A stretch of DNA of 64,000 nucleotides, taken from positions 1 through 64,000 of the forward strand of contig CANIVF010000004.1 in NCBI GenBank assembly GCA_947470895.1, in the 5' to 3' direction. How positions within the stretch are numbered: the first letter of the stretch is position 1; each line of letters opens with the position of its first letter. Below the pieces are notes generated by a model, which was given only the letters and a program-made list of their open reading frames with translations, did no database searches and had not been told where the DNA came from. The translations under genes were made by a program, and so were the position numbers. This DNA is from Bacteroidota bacterium. GTDB taxonomy: Bacteria; Bacteroidota; Bacteroidia; Cytophagales; Cyclobacteriaceae. Positions 20,936 through 64,000 of this stretch are shown here, piece by piece.

Positions 20936-20978
20936 TTTATTTTTGAGAATTACAACTTCGGTCAGCTTCCTGACGTCT

Positions 20979-23624
20979 ATGAGGATAATGAGATTTATTT
21001 TACTCCTGAGTTTATTCATTTCTGCTTCTGCTTCTGCCTCGCTCCATGCAGGCGGTATTCGCGGAACAATAAAAGCGGATGATGGTTCACCATTGGCTTT
21101 CGCCTCCATTTTTGTTAAACAAACGGGCACGGGCAGCGCCACCGATTTCGAAGGGAAGTACGAAGTTATTCTGCCTTCCGGACGCTATGATGTTCTGTTC
21201 CAGTATTTGGGATATGAATCGGTAAGCCGTGTGGTAGACGTAGGTGACAATTTTATCGAAATCAATCTTACGATGAAAACACACGTCATGATGTTGCAAA
21301 ATGTAGTGGTCAGGGCTGGTAACGAAGACCCGGCATATACCATTATGCGAAAGGCTATGTCAAAAGCTAAGTATCACACACAACAAGTTGACCAATATTC
21401 TGCGAAGGTTTATATCAAGGGAAAAGGTCAGCTAAAGGATTTTCCGTGGTTGGCGAAGAAGACCCTTGAAAAGGAGGGGATCACCAAAGACCGTGTTTTT
21501 ATTTCTGAGTCCGTAAGTGAAATCAAATACACAAGGCCAAATAAGTTTGAGGAAAAAGTGATCGCAGTGTATAGCAATGGTGGTAATAAAAACACCGCTC
21601 CTAATGCTTATGTATTTGGAAGTTTCTACCAACCTGAAATTGCTGAAACGGTTTCTCCGCTTTCGCCAAAATCGTTTTCTTATTACCGGTTTGAATATCT
21701 CGGATCATTCAAAGATCAAAAGTATGAGATCAGTAAAATTAAAGTAACACCTCGCTCGCGTGGCGATAATGTTTTTGAGGGCATGATCTATATCGTGGAG
21801 GACTGGTGGAGCATACACAGTTTGGAAATGAAAGCCAGCAAGATGGGAGTCCATTTTAATATCAAGCAATTATATAATCCTATTGAAGACAAAGCGTGGC
21901 TGCCGGTGGCTCAGCAATTTGTTGTAGATGGTAAAGTGTTCGGGTTTGAGTTTGAAGGACAATACCTGGCCACTGTGAAGGAATATAAGATTAAACTAAA
22001 TCCTGAACTGATTGTAGAGATGACGGTCGTTGACGAAAAGGTTCAAAAGGAGGAGGCGAAAAAAGTAGAGCAGAAGTTCAGCAAGAAAAATCAGGAATTG
22101 CAGCAACGACTTAATGAGGGTAAGGAGATAACGAGTAAAGAACTCAATCAGCTCGTGAAGGAATATGAAAAGGCGGAGATCAAGGAGCAAAAAGAGCCAG
22201 ATGTCATTATGGAAACTAATTACACCGTTGATTCGCTGGCCTACAAAAAAGATTCAACGTTTTGGGTGGACATGCGCCCTACACCACTGAGTAAAGAAGA
22301 GGAGCGGGGTTATCATGTTAACGATAGTATCACGGAAGTAGAAAAAAAACGTGACGAGGGTGATACACTACGATCATCAAAAAAAGGAAAGAAGGGATTT
22401 CAGGTGTTTGATATCGTAACCGGTGATACGTATAAGATGGGCAAGACATCGGACTTTCGAATACATATGCCCTATGGCGGATTCAACACGGTGGAAGGAT
22501 TCAATCTGATCTATCGTGTGAGCTTCTATAAGAGGTGGGTAAAGCGAGATACACTAGATAGAAGTAGGAAACCTGAGACTTCGCGCTTGGAGATTAGTCC
22601 CATTGCACGCTATGCTTTTTCGCGTGAATTGTTAACGGGTAAACTTAGGGTAGATTATCGATTCAAAAATCAACGACTCACTCTGGAGAGCGGTCGATAC
22701 GTGGAGCAGTTTAATTCAGGAGTTCCTGTTCATCCCATCATCAACACATTTTCATCGTTGCTGTTGGGTAACAACTGGATGAAGCTATATGAGCGTAATT
22801 TTGTTGACTTGAATTATTCCATCCGTTTCAATGATAGATACACTTTTAGAACCAATTGGACATGGGCCAGACGATCGGAGTTATTCAACACCACAGACTA
22901 TACCCTCTTTAAGACAAGTAAAGAAAATTATACACTTAACGCTCCGGTAAATTCTGAATTACTATCCACTAGTTTTGATCCAAACAGCGCGTTTATAGGA
23001 TCTGTAACTTTTGAAGCAAGACCTTGGCAAAAGTATCGTATTCGGAATGGAAATAAATCGCGGGTGGAAGGTTCATCGCCACTAATAACTTTTAATTATC
23101 GGAAAGGTATAAGAGGGGTAGCCGATAGCGAAGTTGATTTTGATCAGGTTCAGGTTGGGTTTAAACACATGGTGAAGATGGGAATCCGTGGAAATCTGGA
23201 TGTGGCATTCCAGGCAGGTAAGTTTCTCAACAAAGACAACATGTATTTTATGGACTACAAGCATTTCAATGGTAATCGTACCTATTTCATTACATCCGAT
23301 CCTGTGGGTAGTTTCAGGCTTCTGGACTATTATCAAAACAGCACAGCTGACCAATATTTTTCGGCCAACATGCATTATCATTTTCGTAAATTTTTAGTCA
23401 CACGAATACCAAAAGTGCGGATGCTTGGAGTTACGGAAAATGTTTTCCTGAATTACCTGGCCACCCCATCATCTCAAAATTATACTGAAGTGGGTTATGG
23501 TCTTGAAGGTATTCTTCGCATTTTCCGCTTGGAATTTGCTGCTGCTTTCCGCGATGGCAGGTATGTTGAAAATGGTTTACGTGTAGGAATTGCGACCAGC
23601 GTGACAATTAATTTTAATGATTAA
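20979..23624 (+). CDS. DUF5686 outer-membrane protein with carboxypeptidase-D-like N-terminus
   Basis: I chose ATG 20979 (881 residues). A TTG at 20943 would place extra residues before the signal peptide MRFILLLSLFISASASASL; ATG 20988 is also possible. After the signal come a carboxypeptidase-D-like module (GTIKADDGSPLAFASIFVKQ), the DUF5686 region (EDPAYTIMRKAMSKAKYHTQ), a Lys/Glu-rich probably helical insertion at roughly residues 350-405, and a C-terminal part rich in aromatic beta strands (GYGLEGILRIFRLEFAAAF). This order is typical of a Bacteroidota outer-membrane beta-barrel family of unknown function. It follows nadD by 43 bp. Confidence 0.88.
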   Translation: MRIMRFILLLSLFISASASASLHAGGIRGTIKADDGSPLAFASIFVKQTGTGSATDFEGKYEVILPSGRYDVLFQYLGYESVSRVVDVGDNFIEINLTMKTHVMMLQNVVVRAGNEDPAYTIMRKAMSKAKYHTQQVDQYSAKVYIKGKGQLKDFPWLAKKTLEKEGITKDRVFISESVSEIKYTRPNKFEEKVIAVYSNGGNKNTAPNAYVFGSFYQPEIAETVSPLSPKSFSYYRFEYLGSFKDQKYEISKIKVTPRSRGDNVFEGMIYIVEDWWSIHSLEMKASKMGVHFNIKQLYNPIEDKAWLPVAQQFVVDGKVFGFEFEGQYLATVKEYKIKLNPELIVEMTVVDEKVQKEEAKKVEQKFSKKNQELQQRLNEGKEITSKELNQLVKEYEKAEIKEQKEPDVIMETNYTVDSLAYKKDSTFWVDMRPTPLSKEEERGYHVNDSITEVEKKRDEGDTLRSSKKGKKGFQVFDIVTGDTYKMGKTSDFRIHMPYGGFNTVEGFNLIYRVSFYKRWVKRDTLDRSRKPETSRLEISPIARYAFSRELLTGKLRVDYRFKNQRLTLESGRYVEQFNSGVPVHPIINTFSSLLLGNNWMKLYERNFVDLNYSIRFNDRYTFRTNWTWARRSELFNTTDYTLFKTSKENYTLNAPVNSELLSTSFDPNSAFIGSVTFEARPWQKYRIRNGNKSRVEGSSPLITFNYRKGIRGVADSEVDFDQVQVGFKHMVKMGIRGNLDVAFQAGKFLNKDNMYFMDYKHFNGNRTYFITSDPVGSFRLLDYYQNSTADQYFSANMHYHFRKFLVTRIPKVRMLGVTENVFLNYLATPSSQNYTEVGYGLEGILRIFRLEFAAAFRDGRYVENGLRVGIATSVTINFND

Positions 23625-23645: not shown

Positions 23646-23678
23646 TGATCATCGTTCGCGAAATTTGAACGATGATCA
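23646..23678 (+). promoter_or_regulatory. 12-bp inverted repeat covering the mnmH start codon
   Basis: TGATCATCGTTC (23646-23657) pairs perfectly with GAACGATGATCA (23667-23678) around a nine-base loop. The mnmH ATG (23672-23674) lies inside the second arm. There is no T-run after it, so a rho-independent terminator for the DUF5686 gene is less likely than an RNA hairpin that could hide the start. The regulatory role is an inference. Confidence 0.45.
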
Positions 23679-24685
23679 TCTCCATTGAAGATTTCCTTTC
23701 GTTACGTAAGCAACTATCCGTTATTGATGTGCGTTCTCAGGGTGAATTTCAAGACGGTCATATCCGGAATGCGATCAATATTCCATTGCTAAATAATGAA
23801 GAACGTGTGCAGGTAGGTACAGATTATAAGCAGAAGGGACAGAGAGAAGCTATCAAAACTGGGTTTAGATTGGTTGGCCCGAGGCTGTTGGATATTGTAA
23901 ATGAAGCCGAGCAGGTTGCTCAGGGATCAGAATTGCTCGTGCATTGCTGGCGCGGTGGTATGCGCTCGAATAACTTTAGCCAGTTTGTAAGTATGGCGGG
24001 TGTAAAGTCGCATACCTTGAAGGGCGGCTATAAAGAATATAGGAGCAGGTCTTTAGAGTCCTTCAAAAAACCCTTTCAGGTCATTTTGCTGACAGGCTGC
24101 ACCGGGAGCGGAAAAAGTGAAATACTAAGAGCGTTAAAAGAACATGGTGAGCAAGTTCTCGATCTGGAAGATTTAGCTTGCCACAAGGGTTCGGCATTTG
24201 GAGGTTTATTAATGCCGCCTCAACCCACATCCGAACAATTTCAAAACGAATTGTTTGAGGAGATATTAACACTTGATCTTTCTAAACGAGTTTGGGTGGA
24301 GGACGAATCCATAGCGATTGGGAAAATATTTCTACCCGCAGATTTCTGGAAAACAATGCATCAAAGTCCTTTGGTACAAATGGAGGTTTCAAAAGAAATT
24401 CGTATTCAGCGATTGGTAAATGAGTATGGACCCGCTGACCGTGAAGCGTTTTTAGAGATTATGGGTAAAATTGTGAAACGACTTGGTGGACAGCACTATA
24501 ATACGGCCAAAGAAAAACTTCTTCAAGGCGATATGGCTGCTACCATTGATATACTGCTCACCTACTACGACAAAGCATATTTGCAAAGTATCGATAAGAG
24601 AAGGGATAAGGTTAAACTTGCTCTTCCCTGGAATGGAGAAAGTGTGCAGGATTGCATCAGGGAAATCCTTGATCAGATTAAATGA
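23672..24685 (+). CDS. mnmH: tRNA 2-selenouridine synthase
   Basis: A 337-residue MnmH (SelU/YbbB) enzyme that replaces sulfur by selenium at the wobble uridine of certain tRNAs, using selenophosphate. The N-terminal rhodanese domain has SVIDVRSQGEFQDGHIRNAI and the active-site loop HCWRGGMRS with Cys92. The P-loop of the C-terminal domain is GCTGSGKS (142-149), followed by VLDLEDLACHKGSAFG and VWVEDESIAIGKIFLP, all typical. Its selenium donor SelD is encoded at 50133 in this window. A hairpin overlaps the start codon. Confidence 0.96.
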   Translation: MIISIEDFLSLRKQLSVIDVRSQGEFQDGHIRNAINIPLLNNEERVQVGTDYKQKGQREAIKTGFRLVGPRLLDIVNEAEQVAQGSELLVHCWRGGMRSNNFSQFVSMAGVKSHTLKGGYKEYRSRSLESFKKPFQVILLTGCTGSGKSEILRALKEHGEQVLDLEDLACHKGSAFGGLLMPPQPTSEQFQNELFEEILTLDLSKRVWVEDESIAIGKIFLPADFWKTMHQSPLVQMEVSKEIRIQRLVNEYGPADREAFLEIMGKIVKRLGGQHYNTAKEKLLQGDMAATIDILLTYYDKAYLQSIDKRRDKVKLALPWNGESVQDCIREILDQIK

Positions 24686-24883: not shown

Positions 24884-25563
24884 GATTTTTATTGTTTTCA
24901 ATAATTTATGGTTCAAAGAAATGGAAAAAATATATCTAAAGACTTGCTAAATCGATGATTAACCTATTGACGTAAGATTTTCGCGCATTTTGTCGTTAAA
25001 GTATATTTTCACACAACTAAGCACCATTAACAGCGACTTTAAAGAATTTCTAAATGCCTTTTTTATGGTTTTCATTCCCAAAATAAGAAGTAAGTTTCTG
25101 TAAATCATTGTTTTATGTCGGATTTAGACCGAAGTTGTAGTGGCATAAAATTTCCGACAGGGTTGCATTCACACTAAAAAATGCCTCAAATGGAAAATAA
25201 CCTATCTTCTAAATTAGTCAAGCAACCGATCTCCTTGCTTACTTCATCCAAGCAAAGTAAGATAATAGGAAGGTTTTATGTTCAATTTCCGGAAATGTTA
25301 TCGAGAAAAACAGAAGCTGAAAAAAGGATTGGACTTTATAGCAAAGACCCTTTTAAATAGTTTGCAGATTCCTTTGTTAAAAAGCATTAAAGGATTGAAA
25401 TGCAGAAGCCGGGAGTAACTTGAGTATAAAGTAAGGCCCGTGAAAGGGATATTATGTTAACAGAGATTAAATTAATGTAATATGTTTAAGAGAAGTAAAC
25501 TTAAAACGCTAGTTTTATGAACACTTGTTGACAAACTGAATTTTGACTAAAATTCCAAAAAAG
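24884..25563. other. Long intergenic region before the giant secreted protein
   Basis: About 680 AT-rich bases upstream of the T9SS protein gene. Apart from one possible 59-residue ORF at 25181-25360, I see no coding frame, repeat or T-tailed hairpin. The region must hold the promoters for the divergent small membrane ORF and the giant gene. No exact TAnnTTTG box at a convincing distance was found. Confidence 0.5.
25181..25360 (+). CDS. Possible small protein, 59 residues
   Basis: ATG 25181 to TAG 25360 encodes 59 mostly polar residues (for example SSKQSKIIGRFYVQFPEML and RKTEAEKRIGLYSKDPFK) with balanced charge and no membrane segment. I do not recognise it. It is the only protein-like frame in a 680-base gap. 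It may equally be chance, since AT-rich gaps often contain frames of this length. Confidence 0.3.
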   Translation: MPQMENNLSSKLVKQPISLLTSSKQSKIIGRFYVQFPEMLSRKTEAEKRIGLYSKDPFK

Positions 25564-28500
25564 ATGACAATTTTATCTACTCTTTTAAAACAAAAGAAAG
25601 TTGTCTTACCCCCCTACTTTTCACGGGAAATAAGGCTTCCCTTAACGATCTTCTTATTTTTATTAGCCCATTTTTCAATTGCGCAAATTAGCAGTACCTC
25701 CATAGGAGGTGATTGGAGCTCACCATCAACGTGGGTTGGAGGTGTACTTCCTACTTCGGCTGATGACGTTGTTATTGCTGCCGGGTCTAATGTAGTCATA
25801 AGAAGTCCGTATGTTTTGGTATCCCCTGCATTAAGCCATTCCTTAACTTTAAACGGAACTCTGACTATGGGAAGTGGATCTTCCTCAGACAGAGCATTGG
25901 TAATATCAAACTTCTTATTAATTAATTCCGGGGGAATTTTAACCAATGATGGTACCGCACTTCACAGCATTAGTATCGGAGGAGATTTTACCAATAATGG
26001 TACCTTCAACGCTATAGTTGCTTCAGGCAGAATTCAAATTTCTTTTAATGGAGCCGGGGCACAGGTAATTGATGGAAGTTCATCCACTCAAAACTTTCAG
26101 GGGCTAATCATTAATAAACCGACAGGCCAATCCGTAACAACAGCAGGAGGCGTTACGTCTATTAATGCCTCAGCATTTACTCAAACTTCAGGTGACTTTG
26201 TTGCACCATCTTCATTTACTGTTTCAGGTAACATGACCTTAACATCCGGAGTTTATACGGCAGGTACCAATACGTCTATCGGAGGGAACTTTACACGCAA
26301 TGGATCAACCGCAACATTTACGGCTGGTTCTGGCACTGTAACTTTCAATGGCACATCGCAGACCATTTCAGGAACAGTATCACCTGTTGGTTTCAATAAT
26401 TTAGTTACAAGTGCAAGCGCCAACGTGTTGGCTAACTATGATTTAGCAGTCGGTGGTAATTTATCCATTGGCAGTGGAACTTCGTTCACGGTAATTGGGT
26501 ATAATTTAACGGTAACAGGAACAACAACGATAGCGGGTAATTTTATTTTCTCAACCTCTACTGCGGGCACCAAAACATTTGGTGGGCTTCTTACCATTGC
26601 ATCAGGAGGAACATGGAATAACTCCTTTGGTGAAAATGCACGGATAGTTGCTGGCATAACGAATAATGGCACATTTACATCTGGTACTGGTCAGTATCTA
26701 TTTGTGAACGATTCGCAGATTAATGGAACTTTTGACATATCCAATGTGTCAGTTGAAAGCACCTTTATCCTCACTAATAATGGCACCCTCAACGTTTCTA
26801 CGGACCTTGGCGGTGGAGGGACCTTACAACAAGGTTTGAATTCAACACTTAATGTAAGTGGAACCACATCGATCGCGGTAATCAGCGCTTCCTCTTCCAC
26901 TAATACTGTGAATTATTCAGGAGGTAATCAAGCCATAAAAGGTGCAAATTATTCAAACTTGATTTTATCCGGGAGTGGTGTAAAATCTCTGAACACTTCA
27001 ACCTCTGCCATTTCAGGAGACCTTACTCTAAGTGGTACTGTATCCACTACAACCACTACGACTAATTTAACCATTGGAGGTAATCTTTCGATCGGTGATA
27101 ACTCATTACTTACCAATGGAAATGGGATCAATACAATTACCCTTACTGTTGGAAATTCTCTTTTAGGCGGTGGTACACTATCCCAAACCACTAATTCCAT
27201 TTTAACTATTAATGGCGGATCAACGTCAACACTTGCCCAGATCAATGCTGCGGCAACACCTAACACGGTCAATTATAATGGTGCGTCACCTAAGGTTACA
27301 CCAGGTACTTACCGCAATCTGTTCCTGAATCAACCTACAGGAAACGCATTACTATATGGAAACACTTCAGTTGCAGGAAACCTTACATTAAATAGTGGTA
27401 ATCTTGATTTGGCGAATAACAACCTTACTTTAGATGCTGCATCCAATCTTGTTATCGCTAGCCCATCAGCAACAAAAATGATCATTACTTCGGGTAGTGG
27501 GGAATTAAGAAAGAATTTCAATGCGGTTGGGAGTTTTACATTTCCAATTGGAGATGCTAGCGGAACTGTAGAGTATACTCCTGTTACTGTTAATGTTACA
27601 GCAGCGAGTGCTTTTTCAGGCTCTTATATTGGCGCATCTGTGGTGGATGATAAATTCCACTCAAATAGTTCAACTACTGATTACTTGACACGCTATTGGA
27701 ATATTTCGCAAAGTGGAATATCAAACTGCGTGGCTACCGTTACCGCAAGCTACGTTGCCCAAGACTTGATTGGAATTGTAGGTAATACCGTTGCCGGCCA
27801 ACTAACCGGAACATTCAATCAAGTTACTAATGGCTGGAAAAAGTTCACCGCTCTTAATGGTTCTCTTACCGCAGCAGGAGCCATTCTTGCCACTGGTGAA
27901 CCATCTGTGTTTACCGGTATTACTGGAGCAAATCCTACCGTTATCATTACCGGAGGTGGGGTATCAGTTTGCTCTGGCACGGATGTACCACTCTCGACTA
28001 CCGCAACAGGAACATCGACAATTGTATACACATGGAGTCCAGCTACGGGGCTGAGTGCAATTAACGTGGCCAATCCAATAGCTTCTCCAGCCACCACAAC
28101 CACCTACACCGTTACTATCTATGATGGTAATGGAGGTTCAGCGTTTACTAACACAATAATAACCGCTAATGCGTTGCCAGCTGAAAAAGTGGTGACTGAC
28201 CCAAGTACATGTCTGGGTACGTCTGTCAATATTACCTTAGTGGGATCTGTATCCGGAGTTAATTATCAATTACGTGCAGATAATGATGACTCGCTGGTAG
28301 GTACAGCAGTGGCAGGCACTGGAAGTGATATTAAATTCCCTGTAAATCCATCATTTACCACGACTTATAATGTGTTAGCTACCTTGGCTGCAACGTCATG
28401 CAGTTTAGAGATGGCAGATAAGTCAACCGTAACCGTAAATACATTGCCGTCTGCCCCAATAGCGAGTGCAACATCACAGCCATCATGTTCTGTGGCAACG

Positions 28501-31500
28501 GGTGAAATTACGGTCAGCTCCAACATAACCGATTTAACATTCAGTATTGATGGATCGGATTACACGAATACTACGGGTTTATTCACAGGATTGGTTTCTG
28601 GCGATTATACGGTAACGGCAAAAAGTGTGGCAGGATGTATTTCACTGGGTTCAGCTATGATAACAATAAATCCTGCTACGGGTGGGGCACCATCAGTCCC
28701 TGTAGCGAGTGCAACACTTCAGCCAACTTGCTCGGATTCCACAGGAACGATTACCGTAAGTTCGGATATCACCGGATTATCATTCAGCATTGATGGATCG
28801 GATTATTCAAATACTACGGGTATATTCACAGGATTAGTACCAAATGATTATACTGTAACGGCAAAGAGCGCAGCTGGATGTATATCAGCACCATCTTCTT
28901 CGATAGCAATAGATTTAGCCGTTGACGCACCGTCATCCCCAATCGCGAGCGCCACGCTTCAGCCTACCTGTTCTGTTTCCACGGGAACGATTACCATAAG
29001 TTCAAGTCTTACCGGGTTAACCTTTAGTGTTGATGGATCTGATTATACTAACACCACAGGAGTGTTTACAGGGTTGGCTGCCGGCACGTATACGGTCACT
29101 GCAAAGAATGTCGCAGGCTGCATTTCACCGGCTTCATCGGGTATTACCATCACTGCTCAACCGGCCACGCCTTCTGCTCCAACAGCAACGGTGACGGCCC
29201 AGCCAACATGTTCACTGGAAACCGGAACGCTTACGGTAAGTTCAACTCTTACCGGGTTAACATTTAGTGTCGATGGATCTGCTTATACCAACACCACAGG
29301 AGTGTTTACAGGGTTGACTGCCGGCACGTATACGGTCACTGCGAAGAATGGTGCAGGCTGTATTTCACTGGCTTCATCGGATCTTACCATCAATGCTCAA
29401 CCGGCAACACCGGTAGCCCCTGCCGCGAGTGCAACAGCCCAGCCGACATGTTCAGTAGCCACAGGAACGATTACCGTAAGTTCAAGTCTTACCGGGTTAA
29501 CCTTTAGTGTTGATGGATCTGATTATACTAACACCACAGGAGTGTTTACAGGGTTGTCTGCCGGCACGTATACGGTCACTGCGAAGAATGGAGCAGGCTG
29601 TATTTCACAGGCTTCATCGGATCTTACGATGACTGCTCAACCGGCCACGCCATCTGCTCCAACAGCAACGGTGACGGCCCAGCCGACATGTTCAGTAACC
29701 ACGGGAACGCTTACGGTAAGTTCAAGTCTTACCGGGTTAACCTTTAGTGTCGATGGATCTGCTTATACCAACACCACAGGAGTGTTTACAGGGTTGACTG
29801 CCGGCACGTATACGGTTACCGCGAAGAATGGTGCGGGCTGTATTTCACAGGCTTCATCGGATCTTACGATCACGGCTCAACCGGCCGCGCCTTCCGCTCC
29901 AACTGCAACGGTGACGGCCCAGCCTACCTGTTCTGTTTCCACAGGAACGCTTACCGTCAGTTCAAGTCTTACCGGATTAACATTTAGTGTCGATGGATCT
30001 GATTATACTAACACCACAGGAGTGTTTACAGGGTTGTTTGACGGCACGTATACGGTTACTGCGAAGAACGATGCAGGCTGTATTTCACAGGCTTCATCTG
30101 ATATTACCATCATTGCGCAACCGGCCACACCGGTAGCTCCAGTAGCAAGTGCAACAGCCCAGCCAACATGTTCCGTAGCCACAGGAACGATTACCGTAAG
30201 TTCGGATGTCACCGGATTAACGTTCAGTATTGATGGATCAGATTATTCAAATACTACGGGTGTATTTACAGGATTAGTACCAAATGATTATACCGTAACG
30301 GCAAAGAGCGCAGCTGGATGTATATCAGCACCATCTTCTTCGATAGCAATAGATTTAGCCGTTGGCGCACCGTCATCCCCAATCGCGAGCGCCACGCTTC
30401 AGCCTACCTGTTCTGTTTCCACAGGAACGATTACCGTAAGCTCAGATCTTACAGATTTGTCATTCAGCTTAGATGGATCTGACTTTACCAATACGACAGG
30501 AGTGTTTACTGAATTAATCGCTGGCAATTATACCATAACAGCGAAAAATGGTTCGGGTTGTGTTTCTCCGATTTCATCGATCATTACAATCAATGCTCAA
30601 CCGGATGTTCCGTCTGTGAGTTTACCATCAGCTTCATTGTGCATAGGTGCAACGATGACTGCAAGCCCGACTACAAACGGTACGTGGGTGAGCAACGATC
30701 CAAGTATAGCCACAATCGATAACGCTGGATTAATCACCGGGATTTCAGCAGGCGCTGTTACTTTCACGTTTACATTGACCGTATCCGGTTGCAGCGTTAC
30801 CACATCATCCATTACAGTACATGCACTTCCAACAGTGACTACATCATTAGCGACAATGTGCTCAGGCACCACGATGACTTCCAGCCCAGCTGGTGGTACA
30901 TGGGTTAGCAACACACCGGGTGTAGCAACTATTAACAGTACTACCGGATTAATCACCGGTGTTTCGGCCGGTACAGTAACATTCACTTTTACATCAACAG
31001 CAACTGGATGCAGCAATACCACAGCTACAGTAACGGTATCTCCTTCTCCAGAGAAGCCTGTGATCACGGTATCAAATGTATCTACGGATACGCCAACACT
31101 TACCTCCAGTAGTAACATCGGCAATCAATGGTTCAAGGATAATGTAGTAATTACGGGTGTAACTGGTAAAACGCTCACGGTATCTGCAAGTGGTTCATAC
31201 ACTGTTCAGGTAACTTCGAATGGATGTGTAAGTGCTGTTTCAGAAGCATCGGCCATTGTGATTACCGGGATTGAGCAACGAATCATGTCTGGTCGTTCAG
31301 CTATCTATCCTAACCCAGCTAAGGAAGTTATTCAAATCGATTGGAGTGATTTTGCCTCAGAGTCTCTGATTGAAGTAAAGATTTATGATCAGCTAGGTCG
31401 ATTGATAACTTCAAAAGTAGTGACGAGCTCCGATAACTCACTAGATGTGAGAAGTCTTGTACAAGGGCCATACGTACTCCTGGCAAGACAAAACACTTTG

Positions 31501-31530
31501 CTGATGGTTCAACGATTTATAAAAGAATAA
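25564..31530 (+). CDS. Giant secreted adhesin-like protein with nine 80-residue repeats and T9SS sorting domain
   Basis: ATG 25564 gives 1988 residues; a TTG at 25543 would only lengthen the signal region. The signal peptide ends near LAHFSIA, leaving Gln first. Residues about 50-770 are serine/threonine/glycine-rich beta-strand repeats starting with GGDWSSPSTWVGGVLPTSAD, as in surface passenger proteins. A gene part with ICSGTDVPLS-like Ig motifs follows, then nine 80-residue repeats (965-1685; TGLTFSVDGSDYTNTTGVFT), two Ig/BIG2-like domains (GTWVSNDPSIATIDNAGLIT) and a type IX secretion sorting domain (1912-1988; SAIYPNPAKEVIQID). It is probably a cell-surface or released adhesin. It stands alone with a terminator after it. 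Confidence 0.93.
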   Translation: MTILSTLLKQKKVVLPPYFSREIRLPLTIFLFLLAHFSIAQISSTSIGGDWSSPSTWVGGVLPTSADDVVIAAGSNVVIRSPYVLVSPALSHSLTLNGTLTMGSGSSSDRALVISNFLLINSGGILTNDGTALHSISIGGDFTNNGTFNAIVASGRIQISFNGAGAQVIDGSSSTQNFQGLIINKPTGQSVTTAGGVTSINASAFTQTSGDFVAPSSFTVSGNMTLTSGVYTAGTNTSIGGNFTRNGSTATFTAGSGTVTFNGTSQTISGTVSPVGFNNLVTSASANVLANYDLAVGGNLSIGSGTSFTVIGYNLTVTGTTTIAGNFIFSTSTAGTKTFGGLLTIASGGTWNNSFGENARIVAGITNNGTFTSGTGQYLFVNDSQINGTFDISNVSVESTFILTNNGTLNVSTDLGGGGTLQQGLNSTLNVSGTTSIAVISASSSTNTVNYSGGNQAIKGANYSNLILSGSGVKSLNTSTSAISGDLTLSGTVSTTTTTTNLTIGGNLSIGDNSLLTNGNGINTITLTVGNSLLGGGTLSQTTNSILTINGGSTSTLAQINAAATPNTVNYNGASPKVTPGTYRNLFLNQPTGNALLYGNTSVAGNLTLNSGNLDLANNNLTLDAASNLVIASPSATKMIITSGSGELRKNFNAVGSFTFPIGDASGTVEYTPVTVNVTAASAFSGSYIGASVVDDKFHSNSSTTDYLTRYWNISQSGISNCVATVTASYVAQDLIGIVGNTVAGQLTGTFNQVTNGWKKFTALNGSLTAAGAILATGEPSVFTGITGANPTVIITGGGVSVCSGTDVPLSTTATGTSTIVYTWSPATGLSAINVANPIASPATTTTYTVTIYDGNGGSAFTNTIITANALPAEKVVTDPSTCLGTSVNITLVGSVSGVNYQLRADNDDSLVGTAVAGTGSDIKFPVNPSFTTTYNVLATLAATSCSLEMADKSTVTVNTLPSAPIASATSQPSCSVATGEITVSSNITDLTFSIDGSDYTNTTGLFTGLVSGDYTVTAKSVAGCISLGSAMITINPATGGAPSVPVASATLQPTCSDSTGTITVSSDITGLSFSIDGSDYSNTTGIFTGLVPNDYTVTAKSAAGCISAPSSSIAIDLAVDAPSSPIASATLQPTCSVSTGTITISSSLTGLTFSVDGSDYTNTTGVFTGLAAGTYTVTAKNVAGCISPASSGITITAQPATPSAPTATVTAQPTCSLETGTLTVSSTLTGLTFSVDGSAYTNTTGVFTGLTAGTYTVTAKNGAGCISLASSDLTINAQPATPVAPAASATAQPTCSVATGTITVSSSLTGLTFSVDGSDYTNTTGVFTGLSAGTYTVTAKNGAGCISQASSDLTMTAQPATPSAPTATVTAQPTCSVTTGTLTVSSSLTGLTFSVDGSAYTNTTGVFTGLTAGTYTVTAKNGAGCISQASSDLTITAQPAAPSAPTATVTAQPTCSVSTGTLTVSSSLTGLTFSVDGSDYTNTTGVFTGLFDGTYTVTAKNDAGCISQASSDITIIAQPATPVAPVASATAQPTCSVATGTITVSSDVTGLTFSIDGSDYSNTTGVFTGLVPNDYTVTAKSAAGCISAPSSSIAIDLAVGAPSSPIASATLQPTCSVSTGTITVSSDLTDLSFSLDGSDFTNTTGVFTELIAGNYTITAKNGSGCVSPISSIITINAQPDVPSVSLPSASLCIGATMTASPTTNGTWVSNDPSIATIDNAGLITGISAGAVTFTFTLTVSGCSVTTSSITVHALPTVTTSLATMCSGTTMTSSPAGGTWVSNTPGVATINSTTGLITGVSAGTVTFTFTSTATGCSNTTATVTVSPSPEKPVITVSNVSTDTPTLTSSSNIGNQWFKDNVVITGVTGKTLTVSASGSYTVQVTSNGCVSAVSEASAIVITGIEQRIMSGRSAIYPNPAKEVIQIDWSDFASESLIEVKIYDQLGRLITSKVVTSSDNSLDVRSLVQGPYVLLARQNTLLMVQRFIKE
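28456..30618 (+). repeat. Nine tandem 240-bp in-frame repeats
   Basis: Units start at 28456 (243 bp), then 28699, 28939, 29179, 29419, 29659, 29899, 30139 and 30379, each exactly 240 bp. Each encodes about 80 residues with one conserved pattern from QPTCS through SVDGSDYTNTTGVFTGL to TVTAKNGAGCIS. Central units are nearly identical in DNA, and units 3 to 7 alternate between a GSDYT and a GSAYT form. The unit starting 30139 is close to a copy of the unit at 28699. Confidence 0.95.
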
Positions 31531-50132: not shown

Positions 50133-51164
50133 ATGAATTCAATTAAGCTTACCCAATATTCACATGGTGCAGGTTGTGGCTGCAAAATTTCTCCAGCCGT
50201 ACTCGATACAATTCTTCATTCAGATCTGGTAAAGTCTCAATTCCCAAACCTCCTTGTCGGGAATGAATCGAAGGATGATGCTGCCGTTTTTGATCTGGGA
50301 GACGGAACATGCGTGATCAGCACCACTGATTTCTTTATGCCAATTGTTGACGATCCTTTTACCTTTGGATCGATCGCCTCGGTAAATGCTATTAGCGACA
50401 TCTATGCCATGGGGGGTTCTCCATTGATGGCCGTTGCAATCTTAGGTTGGCCTATTAACAAGATACCAGCCGAAGTAGCAAAACAAGTGTTAGAGGGTAG
50501 TCGTCATGTTTGTGCAGAGGCCGGTATTCCGCTGGCTGGGGGTCATAGTATTGATAGCCCCGAACCTATTTTTGGCTTGGCTGTAACGGGTATTGTTCGA
50601 AAGGTAAATCTAAAGAAGAATAGTACAGCAACAGAGGGCAACCTTCTTTATCTGACCAAGCCAATTGGAGTGGGTATGATCACCACTGCACTCAAGCGAG
50701 GCCTTGCACTTCCTGAGGACTTTGAAGAAGCGGTTCAGGTGATGTCGCGACTCAATGACCTGGGAAAGGATTTAGGTATGTTAGACTATGTAAGAGCCCT
50801 CACCGATGTAACTGGCTTTGGCTTGTTAGGACATTTAGTGGAGGTGTGTGAAGGTAGTGACCTTTCTGCGCAAATTGAATATGCTAAGATTCCAATGCTG
50901 AAAAATATTTCACATTACGCATCTAAAATGATTTATCCAGATAATACCATGCGTAACTGGAGTAGCTATCAGAGTAAAGTAATTGGTATTGGAGCAGAAT
51001 CATTATTGACGTTATGCGACCCTCAAACGAGTGGAGGTTTATTGGTTTGCGTTGATGCTACTCAGGCCTCATCTTTTGAAAGTTTTGCAAAACAAAAAGG
51101 ATATGTTCTGGAGCCTTTTGGTAAATTGATAAAGCGAAGTGAACCGTTAATTACAATTCAATGA
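50133..51164 (+). CDS. selD: Selenide, water dikinase (selenophosphate synthetase)
   Basis: A 343-residue enzyme that makes selenophosphate from selenide and ATP. The N-terminus KLTQYSHGAGCGCKISPAVL aligns with E. coli SelD, giving Cys15 and Lys18 as the catalytic pair; position 15 is a normal TGT Cys, not selenocysteine. ATP-site motifs AAVFDLGDGTCVISTTDFFM and SVNAISDIYAMGGSPLMAVA and the later TDVTGFGLLGHLVEVC are all present. It can supply MnmH encoded at 23672. It overlaps the cyclotransferase gene by 4 bp (ATGA). Confidence 0.97.
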   Translation: MNSIKLTQYSHGAGCGCKISPAVLDTILHSDLVKSQFPNLLVGNESKDDAAVFDLGDGTCVISTTDFFMPIVDDPFTFGSIASVNAISDIYAMGGSPLMAVAILGWPINKIPAEVAKQVLEGSRHVCAEAGIPLAGGHSIDSPEPIFGLAVTGIVRKVNLKKNSTATEGNLLYLTKPIGVGMITTALKRGLALPEDFEEAVQVMSRLNDLGKDLGMLDYVRALTDVTGFGLLGHLVEVCEGSDLSAQIEYAKIPMLKNISHYASKMIYPDNTMRNWSSYQSKVIGIGAESLLTLCDPQTSGGLLVCVDATQASSFESFAKQKGYVLEPFGKLIKRSEPLITIQ

Positions 51165-51958
51165 TTGATTCAACTCATGATAGGAGCATGCCCTTGTTCC
51201 TACTTTCAATTCTTTTTCTAGTTGCTTCCTGCAAACCAGACAATAGGGAAATTACCAATATCGCTTATACAGTGGTCAAAGCTTTTCCTCATGATCATGC
51301 AGCCTTTACACAAGGACTCGTCATTGAGTATGGAAGATTGTTTGAAAGCACAGGGCAAGAAGGAGCATCGTGGATTGCCGAAGTGAATCTGTCCACGGGT
51401 GTACAGGACAAAAAAGTAACGCTTGATTCGATGTACTTTGGTGAAGGCATCACGATTCTAGGTAATAAAATCTATCAGCTCACCTGGAAAAGTAAAACGG
51501 GATTTGTCTACGATGTTAACACCTTTCAAAAACTAAGCACATTTTCTTATGATCATGAAGGATGGGGAATAACTCATAACGGGAAGAATCTTATAGTAAG
51601 TGATGGCACCAACAAAATTCATTTTCTGGATACGGCTACGTTAAATGAGGTCAGTGCGATAGAAGTAAAAGAGCGCGAAGTGGCGGTTGATAAACTTAAC
51701 GAATTAGAATTCATAGATGGATACCTCTTTGCCAACCGGTGGATGACGAATGAAGTACTGAAAATAGATTTATCAAATGGCAATGTGGTCGGAAAGTTAG
51801 ATTTGACTGAATTAGCCAGAGAATCCAATCAAACTAATCCTTCTGCCGATGTACTCAATGGTATTGCTTACGAAAAGAAAAGCGGTTTGCTTTTAGTCAC
51901 CGGAAAGTGGTGGCCATTTTTGTTTGCATTGCGATTGGATAAAGAAGTTAAGGAGTAA
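51161..51958 (+). CDS. Glutaminyl-peptide cyclotransferase (plant-type, lipoprotein)
   Basis: A 265-residue protein of the beta-propeller (plant/papaya type) glutaminyl cyclase family, which converts N-terminal Gln of proteins to pyroglutamate. Its signal LLSILFLVASC makes it a lipoprotein facing the periplasm. The propeller shows KAFPHDHAAFTQGLVIEYGR, LFESTGQEGASWIAEVNL, WGITHNGKNLIVSDGTNKIH, LNELEFIDGYLFANRWMTNE and VLNGIAYEKKSGLLLVTGKW, all hallmarks. It is coupled to selD by a 4-bp overlap and is 17 bp before an exported protein whose mature end is Gln. Confidence 0.93.
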   Translation: MIDSTHDRSMPLFLLSILFLVASCKPDNREITNIAYTVVKAFPHDHAAFTQGLVIEYGRLFESTGQEGASWIAEVNLSTGVQDKKVTLDSMYFGEGITILGNKIYQLTWKSKTGFVYDVNTFQKLSTFSYDHEGWGITHNGKNLIVSDGTNKIHFLDTATLNEVSAIEVKEREVAVDKLNELEFIDGYLFANRWMTNEVLKIDLSNGNVVGKLDLTELARESNQTNPSADVLNGIAYEKKSGLLLVTGKWWPFLFALRLDKEVKE

Positions 51959-51975
51959 TACACCCACGATTATCT

Positions 51976-54900
51976 ATGAGAAATACATCGATACTCAGTG
52001 TAATAGTTTTCCTATCGCTTTTATTTATTGACTTTCAACTCACAGCTCAACAGCTAGACCTAAAGCAAATTCGTAATCTGAAAATTCGAAGTGTGGGCCC
52101 AGCGAATATGAGTGGGCGTATTACTGCGATTGATGTAGTGCAAAGCAATACTAAAATTATGTACATCGGTGCCGCTTCCGGTGGAGTATGGAAATCTGAA
52201 AATGGTGGCAGCGCCTGGCAAAGTATTTTTGATGACAATACTACGATTAATGTTGGGTCGATAGCGATACAACAGAGTAATCCATCTGTGATTTGGGTTG
52301 GAACAGGTGAAGGAAATCCACGCAACTCTATCAATATGGGATTGGGTTTATTCAAAAGCCTTGATGCGGGAAAAACATGGAAGCGTGTTGGACTAGAAAA
52401 TTCAAAAGCGATTCATCGCATCATCGTTGATCCTTCAAATCCCAATACAGTGTATGCGGGTGAGATGGGCGATCCTTTTACTCCAGGCAATCAGCGTGGG
52501 GTTTATAAGACTACAGATGGAGGAAATTCATGGTCACAGATTTTGTTTACCAATAATCAAACGGGTGTGGGTGACATGGTGATGGATCCGTTCAATCCAA
52601 ACAAGATTTTTGCTGCGATGTACGAGCACCATCGCACGCCTTACAGTTTTACTTCGGGTGGCCCCGGATCGGGATTGTATCTCACCTATGATGGTGGCAA
52701 GAGCTGGAAGAAATTGGGTGTTGAAAATGGATTGCCTGCCGGAGAACTCGGCCGCATTGGTATCGCTATCGCGAGGAGTAATTCAGACCGCGTCTATGCA
52801 AAAGTAGAAGCGACTAAGAATGCACTTTATCGAAGTGAGGATGGTGGACTTCATTGGACGATGATCAATGATAATCCAAGATTCACGAATAATCGTCCTT
52901 TCTATTTTCAGGATATTGCGGTTGACACAAAAGATGAAAACCGACTTTATAATATTTATCAGCCACTTTCTGTCAGTGATGATGGAGGAAAAACGTTTGA
53001 TCCAACGCCCATGATTTCGGCAGATGAAACCAAAGGTATTCATGCCGATTTTCATTCATTCTGGATTGATTCTCATGATCCAACTTTCTTCATCATTGGT
53101 GGCGATGGCGGCATTGGCATCACCCACGACAAAGGAAAGAGTTGGTATTTTCCTGAATCGATTCCAGTAGGACAATTCTATCATATCAATGTGGATAATG
53201 ATAGACCCTACAATGTGTATGGTGGTTTACAAGATAACGGCAACTGGTCGGGGCCAGGTTATGTGTGGAAGCGTGGTGGCATCCGCACACTGTATTGGCA
53301 ATATTTAGTGGGTGGTGATGGATTTTATATTTCACCGGATTCTGCCAATTCGCGTTTTGGTTATGGCACTTCACAAAATGGTGATCTCTATCGCTATGAT
53401 AAATTGACAGGATACTACCTTAGCATCAGCCCTCCAGCTCCTGATATAAAAACCCGTTTACGTTTTAATTGGAACGCAGGCTTTGCTCAAGATCCTTCCA
53501 ATAGTAAAATTGCCTATTATGGAAGTCAGTTTCTTCATAAGACTACCGATAAAGGTGCTACCTGGCAAATCGTTTCTCCTGATCTTACAACAAACAATAT
53601 CAACCATCAGAAACAAGATTATGGTGGCTTAACGATTGATGCTTCGGGCGCAGAGATTTATAATTCTATTTTAAGCATTGCACCGAGCACATTAGATAAT
53701 CAAATCGTTTGGGTGGGCACCGATGATGGTAGCGTTCAACTCACACAAAACGGAGGGAAGATCTGGACTAATCTCACATTGAACATCAAAGGACTGCCTA
53801 AAGAAAGTTGGATTGCACAGATCAAAGCGTCACGTTACCATAAAGCAGAAGCGTGGGTAGTGGCCAACAATTATCGTCAGGGAGATTTTAATCCGTACAT
53901 CTACCGCACAAAAGATTTTGGTAAAACATGGGATCGAGTTGTCGATGCTAGTAAGGTGAAGGGATATGCACTCACGATTATTCAGGATCCTATTGAGCCC
54001 AAACTTATTTTTGCTGGAACAGAAAATGGTTTGTGGATCAGCATCGATGAAGGAAAAAGTTGGGTTCAGATGAAAAATGGATTTCCATCCGTTTCTACAA
54101 TGGACTTGGCTATTCAGGAACGTGAGTCGGCACTAATCATCGGAACATTTGGTCGCGCGATTTGGATCTTGGATGATCTTATTTCACTTCGCAAAATAGC
54201 CGGATCATCAACAATAAAAGACTTCGCTGTATTTCCAACGAATGATGCCGTACAGGTCAAGGGAATTTTTATTAACCCGCCCGGAAACATATGGACAGGT
54301 TTTAATACCACGTTTGAAGGAGAGAATCGTCCGTTTGGTGAATCATCGATCCCCTTCTATGTGAAGTCATCTGCATTGGATAAAGAAAAGAAAGTGGTGA
54401 CCGGTTATGTGTTCAATGAAACGAATGAAATGATTCAAACCATCACATCGGCAAAAATTGATTCCGGATTAAATTACGTCTCATGGCGATTGGACGAAAA
54501 GATAGCTAAGCTACCCGGTGGTTGGGATGATCCCGATGCAAAAGGAATTTTAGCATTGCCAGGTAAGTATAAGGTTGTATTGAATTATCAGGGAATGAAA
54601 GATTCCACGTATGTGAATGTTATTCCTGATCCTCGGTTTGACTATTCAAACGAAATTGAAGTGGCCAATCATGATATCCTTAAACGGTTGGATAAAACCA
54701 CAGAAAAACTTTCTATTGCCCTCAGTAGAGTGAAAGAAAGCAATGAGGTAGTTGATAAAATTTTGCTTCAGCTGAATGATGTTAAAACTCATGAGGGTGG
54801 GGCCTTGAGCAAGACTTCATATGGAATGAAGGAATCACTTAAGAAATTAAATGAGTCTGCTACCGGCTCGCGTCCTGCCAGACAAGTAGGAGCTTGGAGT

Positions 54901-55110
54901 TCTTTCCAGGTAACCCCACAATCCAAAATCTCAGAAGCGCATCAGGCATTGAGAGCCCGCTTATCAAATCCATCAATACAAGATGTGCAGCGTGTGGAAG
55001 TAGCGGAGCAACTTACCAGAGAGTTTATAAAGCAAGTGGATGCTTTCTTCTTAAAAGATTGGAATGACTATCGCACTCAAGTAGAAGCGGCACGGCTCAG
55101 TTGGTTCTAA
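51976..55110 (+). CDS. Exported Asp-box/VPS10-like beta-propeller protein
   Basis: A 1044-residue secreted or outer-membrane-associated protein. The signal peptide ends near QLTA, leaving Gln. About residues 30-740 carry many BNR/Asp-box turns (ASGGVWKSENGGSAWQSIF, GLFKSLDAGKTWKRVGL, GVYKTTDGGNSWSQI), the sortilin/VPS10-type propeller often labelled glycosyl hydrolase in Bacteroidota. A C-terminal part without repeats (GKYKVVLNYQGMKDSTYVNV, then helices) follows. I see no catalytic residues to name and no T9SS sorting domain at the end. It may bind or process glycans or peptides. A relative lies at 61824. Confidence 0.88.
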   Translation: MRNTSILSVIVFLSLLFIDFQLTAQQLDLKQIRNLKIRSVGPANMSGRITAIDVVQSNTKIMYIGAASGGVWKSENGGSAWQSIFDDNTTINVGSIAIQQSNPSVIWVGTGEGNPRNSINMGLGLFKSLDAGKTWKRVGLENSKAIHRIIVDPSNPNTVYAGEMGDPFTPGNQRGVYKTTDGGNSWSQILFTNNQTGVGDMVMDPFNPNKIFAAMYEHHRTPYSFTSGGPGSGLYLTYDGGKSWKKLGVENGLPAGELGRIGIAIARSNSDRVYAKVEATKNALYRSEDGGLHWTMINDNPRFTNNRPFYFQDIAVDTKDENRLYNIYQPLSVSDDGGKTFDPTPMISADETKGIHADFHSFWIDSHDPTFFIIGGDGGIGITHDKGKSWYFPESIPVGQFYHINVDNDRPYNVYGGLQDNGNWSGPGYVWKRGGIRTLYWQYLVGGDGFYISPDSANSRFGYGTSQNGDLYRYDKLTGYYLSISPPAPDIKTRLRFNWNAGFAQDPSNSKIAYYGSQFLHKTTDKGATWQIVSPDLTTNNINHQKQDYGGLTIDASGAEIYNSILSIAPSTLDNQIVWVGTDDGSVQLTQNGGKIWTNLTLNIKGLPKESWIAQIKASRYHKAEAWVVANNYRQGDFNPYIYRTKDFGKTWDRVVDASKVKGYALTIIQDPIEPKLIFAGTENGLWISIDEGKSWVQMKNGFPSVSTMDLAIQERESALIIGTFGRAIWILDDLISLRKIAGSSTIKDFAVFPTNDAVQVKGIFINPPGNIWTGFNTTFEGENRPFGESSIPFYVKSSALDKEKKVVTGYVFNETNEMIQTITSAKIDSGLNYVSWRLDEKIAKLPGGWDDPDAKGILALPGKYKVVLNYQGMKDSTYVNVIPDPRFDYSNEIEVANHDILKRLDKTTEKLSIALSRVKESNEVVDKILLQLNDVKTHEGGALSKTSYGMKESLKKLNESATGSRPARQVGAWSSFQVTPQSKISEAHQALRARLSNPSIQDVQRVEVAEQLTREFIKQVDAFFLKDWNDYRTQVEAARLSWF

Positions 55111-55456: not shown

Positions 55457-56509
55457 TCAGCAATCTTTTCTTTTAGTTTGATCAATCTCCATGATCAGAT
55501 CGGCACCATAGACCATAGCGGGGGTTTGATAACCTGCTTTGAAATTTCCACTCATGATTTTTTCTGCAATGAGCACGGCTGTTTTTGCTGTGAGCGTGTA
55601 ACCACTCACAGTTTCCAAGTTACTTAAACATTCTTTACCGCTGCTATCCCAAACTTTTCCCCACAGAAAACTGCGCCCTGAATTTCTTTTTTCTTCACTG
55701 GGGCCTGCGGGTTTTTGATCAATTTTTTTGAGCATGTAGTTTTTCACCCAACGCATGCGCAGGAACCAATTGAGGTACTTACTCATTTTGGCATTCTTGA
55801 TCATGCCCGGAGTTGCTCCGGTATATACTTCAATGTTTGGAATACCAGTGCTGCGCCATGCCGTAGAAATATCTCCCCAAGGAATATTTAAGGTGGGCGC
55901 CTTGAACGATCCAAAATCAACATCCAACACTTTTTCTCCGAGATTGATTGGTGTGAGCTTACCGTCTTTGCGGACCAAACTTCCATTGCCAAGTCCTTCG
56001 GTCATGGTCTTCGATGTGCCACGGGATAACCCTCCTTTTGACATGGTGAAGGCCAGTTGTAAATGGGTAGCCGATGGTAAACGATTTTTTAAATGGAGCG
56101 CAAGACAATCTGAAGGCACCACATCAAAGCCAGTGCCTGGCATAATCATGATACCTGCATCTTTTCCTTTTTGATCATAGCCGGCCAGCAATTCAAATAC
56201 CTGGTGCTCACCAGTAATATCCGTATAATGTGTTTTTGTTTCGAGGCATGCATCGGCCATGGTTCTGGCTGTGTATTGAAATGGGCCACCGCAGTGAATA
56301 ACTACAGCACCTTTCTTTAAAATATTTTTTAATGCTGTGGTGTCAGCAATGTCAACGACTTCAAACGGGTAGCCAGTTTCTTCACTTTGTTTTTGGAGCG
56401 ATTCTTTCTTGCGACCGGAAAGAATGACGTTCAGATTTTTTGCTTTGCACTCCTGCGCAATGATTTTTCCGGTATAGCCGTAAGATCCGTAAAGAATAAT
56501 GGTTGACAT
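55457..56509 (-). CDS. Saccharopine-dehydrogenase-like NAD(P)-binding protein
   Basis: A 350-residue oxidoreductase of the saccharopine dehydrogenase NADP-binding family (trans-acting enoyl reductase-like). It opens TIILYGSYGYTGKIIAQECK with a GxxGxxG dinucleotide loop, then VILSGRKKESLQKQ, AVVIHCGGPFQYTARTMADA and HYTDITGEHQVFELL, all typical. Later GIMIMPGTGFDVVPSDCLAL is also a family block. Substrate unknown. It starts 6 bp after the previous - strand gene, so it is probably the last gene of the pyrH-frr operon. Confidence 0.88.
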   Translation of the reverse strand: MSTIILYGSYGYTGKIIAQECKAKNLNVILSGRKKESLQKQSEETGYPFEVVDIADTTALKNILKKGAVVIHCGGPFQYTARTMADACLETKTHYTDITGEHQVFELLAGYDQKGKDAGIMIMPGTGFDVVPSDCLALHLKNRLPSATHLQLAFTMSKGGLSRGTSKTMTEGLGNGSLVRKDGKLTPINLGEKVLDVDFGSFKAPTLNIPWGDISTAWRSTGIPNIEVYTGATPGMIKNAKMSKYLNWFLRMRWVKNYMLKKIDQKPAGPSEEKRNSGRSFLWGKVWDSSGKECLSNLETVSGYTLTAKTAVLIAEKIMSGNFKAGYQTPAMVYGADLIMEIDQTKRKDC

Positions 56510-61823: not shown

Positions 61824-64000
61824 ATGATTAAGAAAGTCATCTTTTCCATGCTGTCATTGATGTTGTTTTTCACAACCAATGCACAGCGCAAAAAAACGCA
61901 AACAGCAACCACAACTCCTTCGGCAACAGCCACTGATCTTAATGATTATTTCAAAGAGGTAAAGTGGAGAAGTATTGGTCCATTCCGAGGAGGTCGATCG
62001 AATACTGCAACCGGTGTGGTTGGAGATATCACTACCTACTACATGGGCACTACTGGTGGCGGTCTTTGGAAAACGGAAGACATGGGCCTTACCTGGAATA
62101 ATATTTCCGATGGATTTTTTAAGAAAGGATCTGTTGGCGCGGTAGCTGTTTCAGAAAGTGACCCTAACGTAGTTTATGTAGGCATGGGCGAGCATGCCAT
62201 TCGCGGGGTGATGACACATCATGGTGATGGTGTTTACAAATCTACCGATGCCGGCAAAACCTGGAAGAAAATGGGATTGGATGTGACACAGCAAATTTCG
62301 CGCATTGCTATTCATCCCAAAGATCCAAACATCGTTTATGTTGCGGCACAAGGCGCTATTTATGGAAACTCAGATCGTGGTGTATTCAAATCGGTGGATG
62401 GCGGTACTACCTGGAAAAGAACTTTGTATGTTGATGATAAAACAGGATGTGTTGAGATATCGATGGACATGAATAACCCACGGGTTCTTTATGCTGCCAT
62501 GAACGAATATGGTCGTTTGCCATGGAAAGTAATCAGTGGAGGTGCAGGCAGTGGTCTTTATAAATCAACGGATAGTGGTGAGACCTGGGGAAAAATTCAC
62601 AACGGCTTGCCAAAGGAATTAGGTAAGATGGCGGTATCGGTAAGTCGTGCTAATTCAAACAAAGTGTACCTTCTTTTAGAAAGTGATTCTGATAAAGAAT
62701 TGGGCGGCTTGTTTGTTTCCAACGATGCAGGCGCGAACTGGACACGGGTTACCAACGATCACCGATTGATTCAAAGAGCGTGGTACTATATAGAGTTATT
62801 CACCGATCCAAAAGATGAGAATACCATTTATGTATTGAGTGCCCCCGCCATGCGCTCCATGGACGGTGGAAAAACCTGGGAGAATCTTTATGGAACACAT
62901 GGAGATTATCACGACTTATGGATTAACCCAGATAATCCAAAGAACATGGTTATTGCTAATGATGGTGGAGCCAGTGTTTCGGTAAACTTTGGTAAAACCT
63001 GGTCTGCGCAAAGCAACATGCCGACTGCACAATTCTATCGCATCAATGTGGATAATAGCTTTCCCTATAATATATATGCTGGCCAGCAGGATAATACTTC
63101 TGTTAAAATTGCCAGTCAGGAATTAGGTAGTGGTGGAATTACTAATGCAAGTTGGACTTCTTCTGCAGGAGGCGAGAGTGCGTTCCTAGCTTTCAATCCG
63201 GATGATCCACGGTATGTTATGGGAGGAAGTTATCAGGGAACGATTGAACTATTAGATACGAAAGCACAAGCAGGAACAAGCGTGATGGCAGCACCCATTC
63301 AATATTTGGGAATGGATGCCAAGGATATCAAATATCGTTACAATTGGAACGCGCCCATCATCTGGTCGAAGCATGAGCCAAACACATTCTATCATGGCTC
63401 ACAATACTTGTTGCGCACGAGAGATATGGGTGTAACCTGGATTGAAGCCTCGCCTGATCTTACACGCAATGAAAAAGAGAAGCAAGGCAAAGGCGGTGGC
63501 CCTTACACCAACGAAGCCGTAGGTGCTGAAAATTATGGAACATTAAGTTATGTTATTGAATCGCCACATGAAAAAGGAGTGATCTGGACAGGCAGTGATG
63601 ATGGATTAGTTCATGTAACCAGAGATAATGGAGCAAGTTGGCAAAATGTTACTCCTGCAGGCTTACAAGAGTGTTTGATCAACGCGATTGAAGTTTCTCC
63701 GCATGACCCTGCCATGGCCTATATAGCCACTACCCGTTATAAGTTTAACGATTACACTCCAGCACTGTATAAGACAACGGATTATGGTAAGACGTGGTCA
63801 AGAATCAATACTGGCATTCCTCAGGGGGCTTTCACCCGTGTAGTGAGAGAAGATGATAAGCGTAAAGATTTACTTTATGCAGGAACCGAAACCGGAGTTT
63901 ATCTTTCGTGGAATGGTGGTAAAGAGTGGACGCCACTTCAACTTAATTTGCCATTAACACCGATTACTGATTTACGCGTTCATCAGGGTGATCTTATCGC
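61824..64000 (+). CDS. Exported Asp-box/VPS10-like beta-propeller protein (3' end beyond window)
   Basis: From ATG 61824 the frame is open to the window edge (725 codons). A signal peptide ends near FFTTNA, leaving Gln first. Asp-box repeats fill the rest: [78 protein letters not shown]. The mature start ([19 protein letters not shown]) resembles the start of the protein at 51976 (RSVGPANMSGR), so the two are paralogues. Ligand and enzymatic activity are unknown. The C-terminal end, and any T9SS sorting domain, is not visible. Confidence 0.9.

Follow-up and report, generated by a model that had tools for sequence, protein, structure and literature searches.

A predicted plant-type lipoprotein glutaminyl cyclase encoded behind selD and N-terminal glutamine on exported proteins of a Cyclobacteriaceae bacterium

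A type I glutaminyl cyclase gene beside selD

The Q-rule, by which exported proteins carry Gln at the first residue after signal cleavage (position +1), has already been described for Bacteroidetes together with cyclisation and lipoprotein glutaminyl cyclases (QCs) of two types; that study counts 574 species with animal-type QC, 507 with plant-type QC and 63 with both among 1540 and describes the existence of two QC lineages as surprising (PMC5837995). The closest characterized system is that of Porphyromonas gingivalis, where PgQC (PG2157) is likewise a lipoprotein QC accompanied by many signal peptidase I substrates with Gln at +1; its essentiality (PMC5837995, PMC10653852) and an effect of QC on protein stability (PMC10653852) are reported. 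PgQC is, however, a type II (M28, animal-type) enzyme, whereas the QC described below belongs to the unrelated type I propeller family. The gene partners differ as well: PgQC is encoded in the PG_2157-PG_2159 operon (QC, an Fe-S protein and hemG), beside genes without any evident link to it that are reported to be dispensable for viability (PMC10653852), whereas the present gene adjoins selD, plus selU in relatives. Our searches of the open-licence literature returned nothing on a QC together with selD (the term is weak and also matches 'seldom'), and for glutaminyl cyclase and Cytophaga they returned the Q-rule paper alone and nothing on a selD-QC locus.

The window, that is, the whole stretch of 64,000 nucleotides analysed, holds the following genes around this locus:

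50133-51164, + strand: selD, selenide water dikinase (NF002098, 494.5 bits, cut-off 299)
51161-51958, + strand: type I (plant-type) QC, predicted lipoprotein (PF05096, E 2.4e-85; 265 aa, intact)
51976-55110, + strand: Vps10/sortilin-like Asp-box protein (PF15902, E 8.1e-30); signal ends LTA/Q (LTA/QQL; slash, cut site), Gln codon 52048-52050
55457-56509, - strand: saccharopine-dehydrogenase-like gene (PF03435), convergent; in relatives it often closes the selD locus on the far side

The original prediction placed a lipoprotein glutaminyl cyclase gene 17 bp upstream of the Asp-box gene, and profile match, lipobox and coordinates all agree with it. The first 4 bp of the QC gene (ATGA) also belong to selD, and 17 bp separate the QC stop from the start of the Asp-box gene at 51976, both on the + strand. 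In the profile search the QC scores 286.4 bits against PF05096 (curated cut-off 22.3) with almost the full profile aligned; PF05096 is the gene's sole match, with PF04389 (type II, animal-type, M28) not among its assignments, and the gene is also the only PF05096 match in the genome (4.92 Mb, 167 contigs). Its nearest QC relatives come from Bacteroidetes, Flammeovirgaceae, Cyclobacteriaceae or Cytophagales. Judged by eye, the signal ends in the lipobox LVAS/C, with the lipid-bearing position at Cys24 (codon 51230-51232).

The residues Q24, E69, N155 and K225, listed as catalytic for papaya QC (CpQC) in PMC5837995, align with Q51, E95, N180 and K249 of the window QC, so that all four are unchanged in this comparison, made with papaya QC (2faw) alone. 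Type I QCs with solved structures (2faw from papaya, 3mbr, 3nol/3nom and 3nok) resemble the window QC over the roughly 225 residues across which it matches 3nol, 3mbr, 2faw and 3nok, and a five-bladed beta-propeller fold is predicted for it by homology to these solved relatives only. It differs from them in being a predicted lipoprotein whose gene adjoins selD.

Family, catalytic residues and lipobox are read from the sequence, whereas the activity and location of the enzyme, and cyclisation by it, are inferred. The QC would be a lipoprotein held on the periplasmic face by its lipid anchor; N-terminal Gln would be exposed on many exported proteins by signal peptidase I, and the QC would cyclise the exposed residue to pyroglutamate. 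In Porphyromonas, pyroglutamate apparently stabilises exported proteins (PMC10653852). We propose, with high confidence, that the window QC acts as a plant-type lipoprotein cyclase for the exported proteome at large, and that its Asp-box neighbour would be one ordinary substrate among many.

Glutamine at position +1 of exported proteins

Besides the Asp-box protein at 51976, four further window proteins bear on the +1 position:

13510-15363, + strand: VWA/YfbK protein; signal ends SLS/Q (SLS/QDR), Gln codon 13570-13572
20943-23624, + strand: DUF5686 protein; type I-like signal whose cut and its surroundings are free of Gln, an exception
25543-31530, + strand: giant protein with a Por secretion tail (T9SS); signal ends SIA/Q (SIA/QIS), Gln codon 25684-25686 if numbering begins at the listed TTG, which is uncertain as the true start
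61824-63998, + strand: Asp-box paralogue; signal ends TNA/Q (TNA/QRK), Gln codon 61884-61886; runs past the window end

All four signals first proposed to precede Gln do so by eye, but the DUF5686 protein had been omitted; because it has a signal without Gln, the window count is four of five proteins with a signal-peptidase-I-type signal (p about 1.2e-5 against a background of 4.0% Gln in mature regions). Both the cut sites and the set of five were judged by eye, and the reading of the sites was not blind to Gln. The translation of the giant T9SS-tailed protein (25543-31530) also displays, by eye, a repeat unit of roughly 80 residues in many near-identical copies.

A fixed-rule caller of signal cut sites, crude and blind to the +1 residue, was applied to the window plus 20 stretches of this genome, 464 kb in all, and to 450 kb of E. 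coli K-12. It placed Gln at +1 in 32 of 72 sites of this genome and in 3 of 35 E. coli sites (Fisher p 1.5e-4). In a 400 kb sample the Gln count peaks at +1 (32/68); the remaining offsets between -5 and +8 have counts of 0 to 10, with -3 and -1 being zero by construction. Relative to the same E. coli sample the share is raised in genomes G047 (10/19, p 5.9e-4) and G064 (16/34, p 4.0e-4), and is not significantly higher in G012 (6/21, p 0.066). Restricted to the window, this caller named four sites, and Gln followed none of them. It placed the VWA cut four residues too early and overlooked the remaining three Gln cases, and two of its four calls are proteins not counted as exported by eye. A second, self-training caller proved unstable, giving 31/92 in this genome against 2/18 in E. 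coli at one setting (p 0.089), 14/92 against 3/37 at another (p 0.39), and 6/92 for this genome when trained on all sets pooled; because its self-training drifted, it was not used as main evidence. The check suggested at the outset, a count of +1 Gln over exported proteins, was carried out on a sample of the genome with a divided outcome, positive with the fixed-rule caller and not significant with the unstable one.

The Gln excess at +1 is a habit of the sampled genome and matches the published Bacteroidetes Q-rule, as the original prediction had it. The rule itself is known; what is added is its extension to one more lineage. That Gln after Ala, Ser or Gly might be a mere habit of cleavage sites or composition, with no cyclisation by the window QC, draws on two observations: E. 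coli too has Ala-Gln junctions, and the two genomes are not told apart by a looser measure that accepts Gln after any valid site of a protein (49/92 here, 8/18 in E. coli), and G064 retains its +1 Gln with no QC found. We nevertheless regard this explanation as very unlikely, given the difference between the two genomes at called sites and the detection of pyroglutamate by mass spectrometry in five Bacteroidetes species (PMC5837995).

The same N-terminal pattern recurs across the Asp-box family. This genome has 16 Asp-box matches, 14 of them long (L153-L162, for example), the window gene at 51976 included. The starts of 11 of the long ones were read, two in the window and nine elsewhere, and in all 11 Gln comes directly after a small residue, a pattern also present in five of five copies from relatives. 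The QC adjoins only one of these 11 Gln-bearing paralogues.

Gene neighbours of the cyclase

A dedicated enzyme-substrate pair, the QC and the adjacent Asp-box protein being held together by selection, would account for the 17 bp spacing on one strand, and it could draw on the fact that QC and Asp-box genes can each occur at a selD locus. The adjacency is nonetheless absent from 80 QC loci taken from named contigs (one of them, L048, is uninformative, as it ends 49 bp past the QC match), from 20 further loci of the genus (L094, L268-L286) and from 20 stretches representing 19 of the 21 other type I-bearing genomes of the family (G019 and G029 excluded); two of the family stretches have an Asp-box gene 2.5-3.5 kb from the QC, on the opposite strand. 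Approached from the Asp-box side, with the best 13 or fewer candidates per genome scored, 24 of 57 other genus genomes hold a relative at E<=1e-200, and by coordinates none of these lies beside a QC.

Close Asp-box orthologues (74-76%) occur in four members of the 58-genome genus sample, again among the best 13 or fewer candidates per genome. Those of G105, G087 and G085 lie on contigs other than that of the QC, with no selD or QC match within 1.5 kb on each side. In G065 selD is followed by the Asp-box orthologue and then by the saccharopine-dehydrogenase-like gene, with no QC between them, and no type I QC was found in this assembly, which is 87% complete. The presence of the orthologue at the selD locus of G065 also led us to drop the idea that the Asp-box gene is a fresh insert behind the QC.

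Elsewhere, selD and QC are followed by the saccharopine-dehydrogenase-like gene in L002, L005, L008, L011, L324, L332, L334 and L340. Among the 30 best-scored selD loci from the 52 genomes with selD, QC and Asp-box genes occur together in one (the window's own), QC with no Asp-box gene in view in 10, selD followed by the dehydrogenase gene in five, and neither QC nor dehydrogenase gene within about 1.5 kb in 14. These gene orders indicate that the QC and Asp-box genes are separable occupants of one variable place. The dedicated pair is thus largely refuted as an account of the locus, and we consider it extremely improbable; the pairing is most likely an accident of gene order, in which a lineage-specific arrangement at the variable spot between selD and the saccharopine-dehydrogenase-like gene would have brought an ordinary substrate gene next to that of its presumed enzyme. 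The 'clear genetic link' between enzyme and substrate that had been claimed for the locus accordingly falls away: the pair was found in none of the relatives examined, G065 has the Asp-box gene without the QC, Gln is found in all the Asp-box paralogues read irrespective of a neighbouring QC, and the recurrent neighbour of the QC is selD.

Indeed, of 122 loci tested, representing 117 distinct rows and with 3 too short to judge, 20 have selD adjoining the QC, and on the tree this adjacency requires two changes, compared with 18.8 on average for shuffled labels. By coordinates, 15 of the 40 type I-bearing genus genomes have selD beside the QC; in the other 25 it was not found there, although contig breaks may hide some cases. 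In 8 of 11 QC-bearing selD loci selD is preceded by selU, which lies further off in the window:

23672-24685, + strand: selU/mnmH, tRNA 2-selenouridine synthase (NF008750 and TIGR03167, above cut-off)

The two sel genes, adjacent in many relatives, are about 25 kb apart in the window, with the gene of the giant T9SS protein and a polysaccharide cluster between them. A polysaccharide-kinase (Wzc) gene before selD is common to L002 and L324.

2-Selenouridine tRNAs read Gln codons, and selU, selD and QC could conceivably form a functional unit in which these tRNAs and Gln cyclisation are coordinated. The adjacency is nearly confined to one clade and recurs in over a third of the type I-bearing genus genomes, as such a unit would suggest; against this stand the 25 of 40 genus genomes in which selD was not found beside the QC and the lack of a paper linking the two genes in our search with its weak term. 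A coupling through codon bias of the +1 Gln was discarded, as these residues are encoded by 18 CAA and 13 CAG, compared with 748 and 492 in the rest of the same proteins (p 0.85, with sites taken from the unstable second caller). We attach a very low probability to the functional unit, and the recurrent selD-QC neighbourhood is read as inherited co-transcription, not joint function.

Type I and type II cyclases among relatives

With type I called by PF05096 and type II by M28 matches to the query L183 at E<=1e-30, the 60 genomes surveyed in the family comprise 16 with type I only, 6 with both, 38 with type II only and none with neither, and absence of type II goes with presence of type I (Fisher p 5e-10, relatedness ignored). 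The 58 genus genomes comprise 15 with type I only, 25 with both, 14 with type II only and 4 with neither; here the types are not exclusive, and their association is not significant (p 0.37). Of these four, G111 carries a fragment of a type II gene close to where a contig begins, and no QC of either type was found in G064 (97% complete), G089 and G106. Because the +1 Gln persists in G064, where no QC was found, QC and Q-rule are not perfectly tied in these assemblies. Loss of a G064 QC at a contig edge beside cysS was considered and rejected, cysS being mid-contig in that genome; the position of cysS is in any case uninformative for the type II QC because the present genome has cysS on contig C63 and the type II gene on C90.

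That type II gene, at L088:1471-2503 on contig C90 and so not part of the window, has its reading frame broken by a frameshift within a tract of short repeats. Its C-terminal piece still matches 6qro best, and the genus also has intact copies of the gene. The frameshift marks either a pseudogene or an assembly error, and the genome was counted as having both types despite it. If the frameshift is real, type I may therefore be the sole working cyclase of this genome. Other short type II frames occur in G051, G088 and G107 and may be cut by contig ends; the G107 piece and one of the two G051 pieces start within 20 bases of a contig start.

Behind selD, the type I gene occupies a variable place; the type II gene, commoner in the family, appears to have lost its frame, and relatives show three states (type I only, both, type II only). 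Tentatively, this pattern could reflect an ongoing replacement, in this lineage, of one enzyme by an unrelated one with the same and probably indispensable function, a possibility we consider rather doubtful as things stand. If true, it would provide a natural series for the non-homologous displacement of an essential enzyme and bear on why Bacteroidetes have two QC lineages; with family genomes holding type I, type II or both, that puzzle would become approachable over short distances.

A longer form of type I QC, with open frames of 356-380 aa, was also noticed in genomes of the family (L090, L091, L093, L095, L096, L099, L100, L102, L105, L106, L110 and L111). These sequences fall outside the main Bacteroidota QC clade, among or near those of other phyla, and are possibly separate acquisitions.
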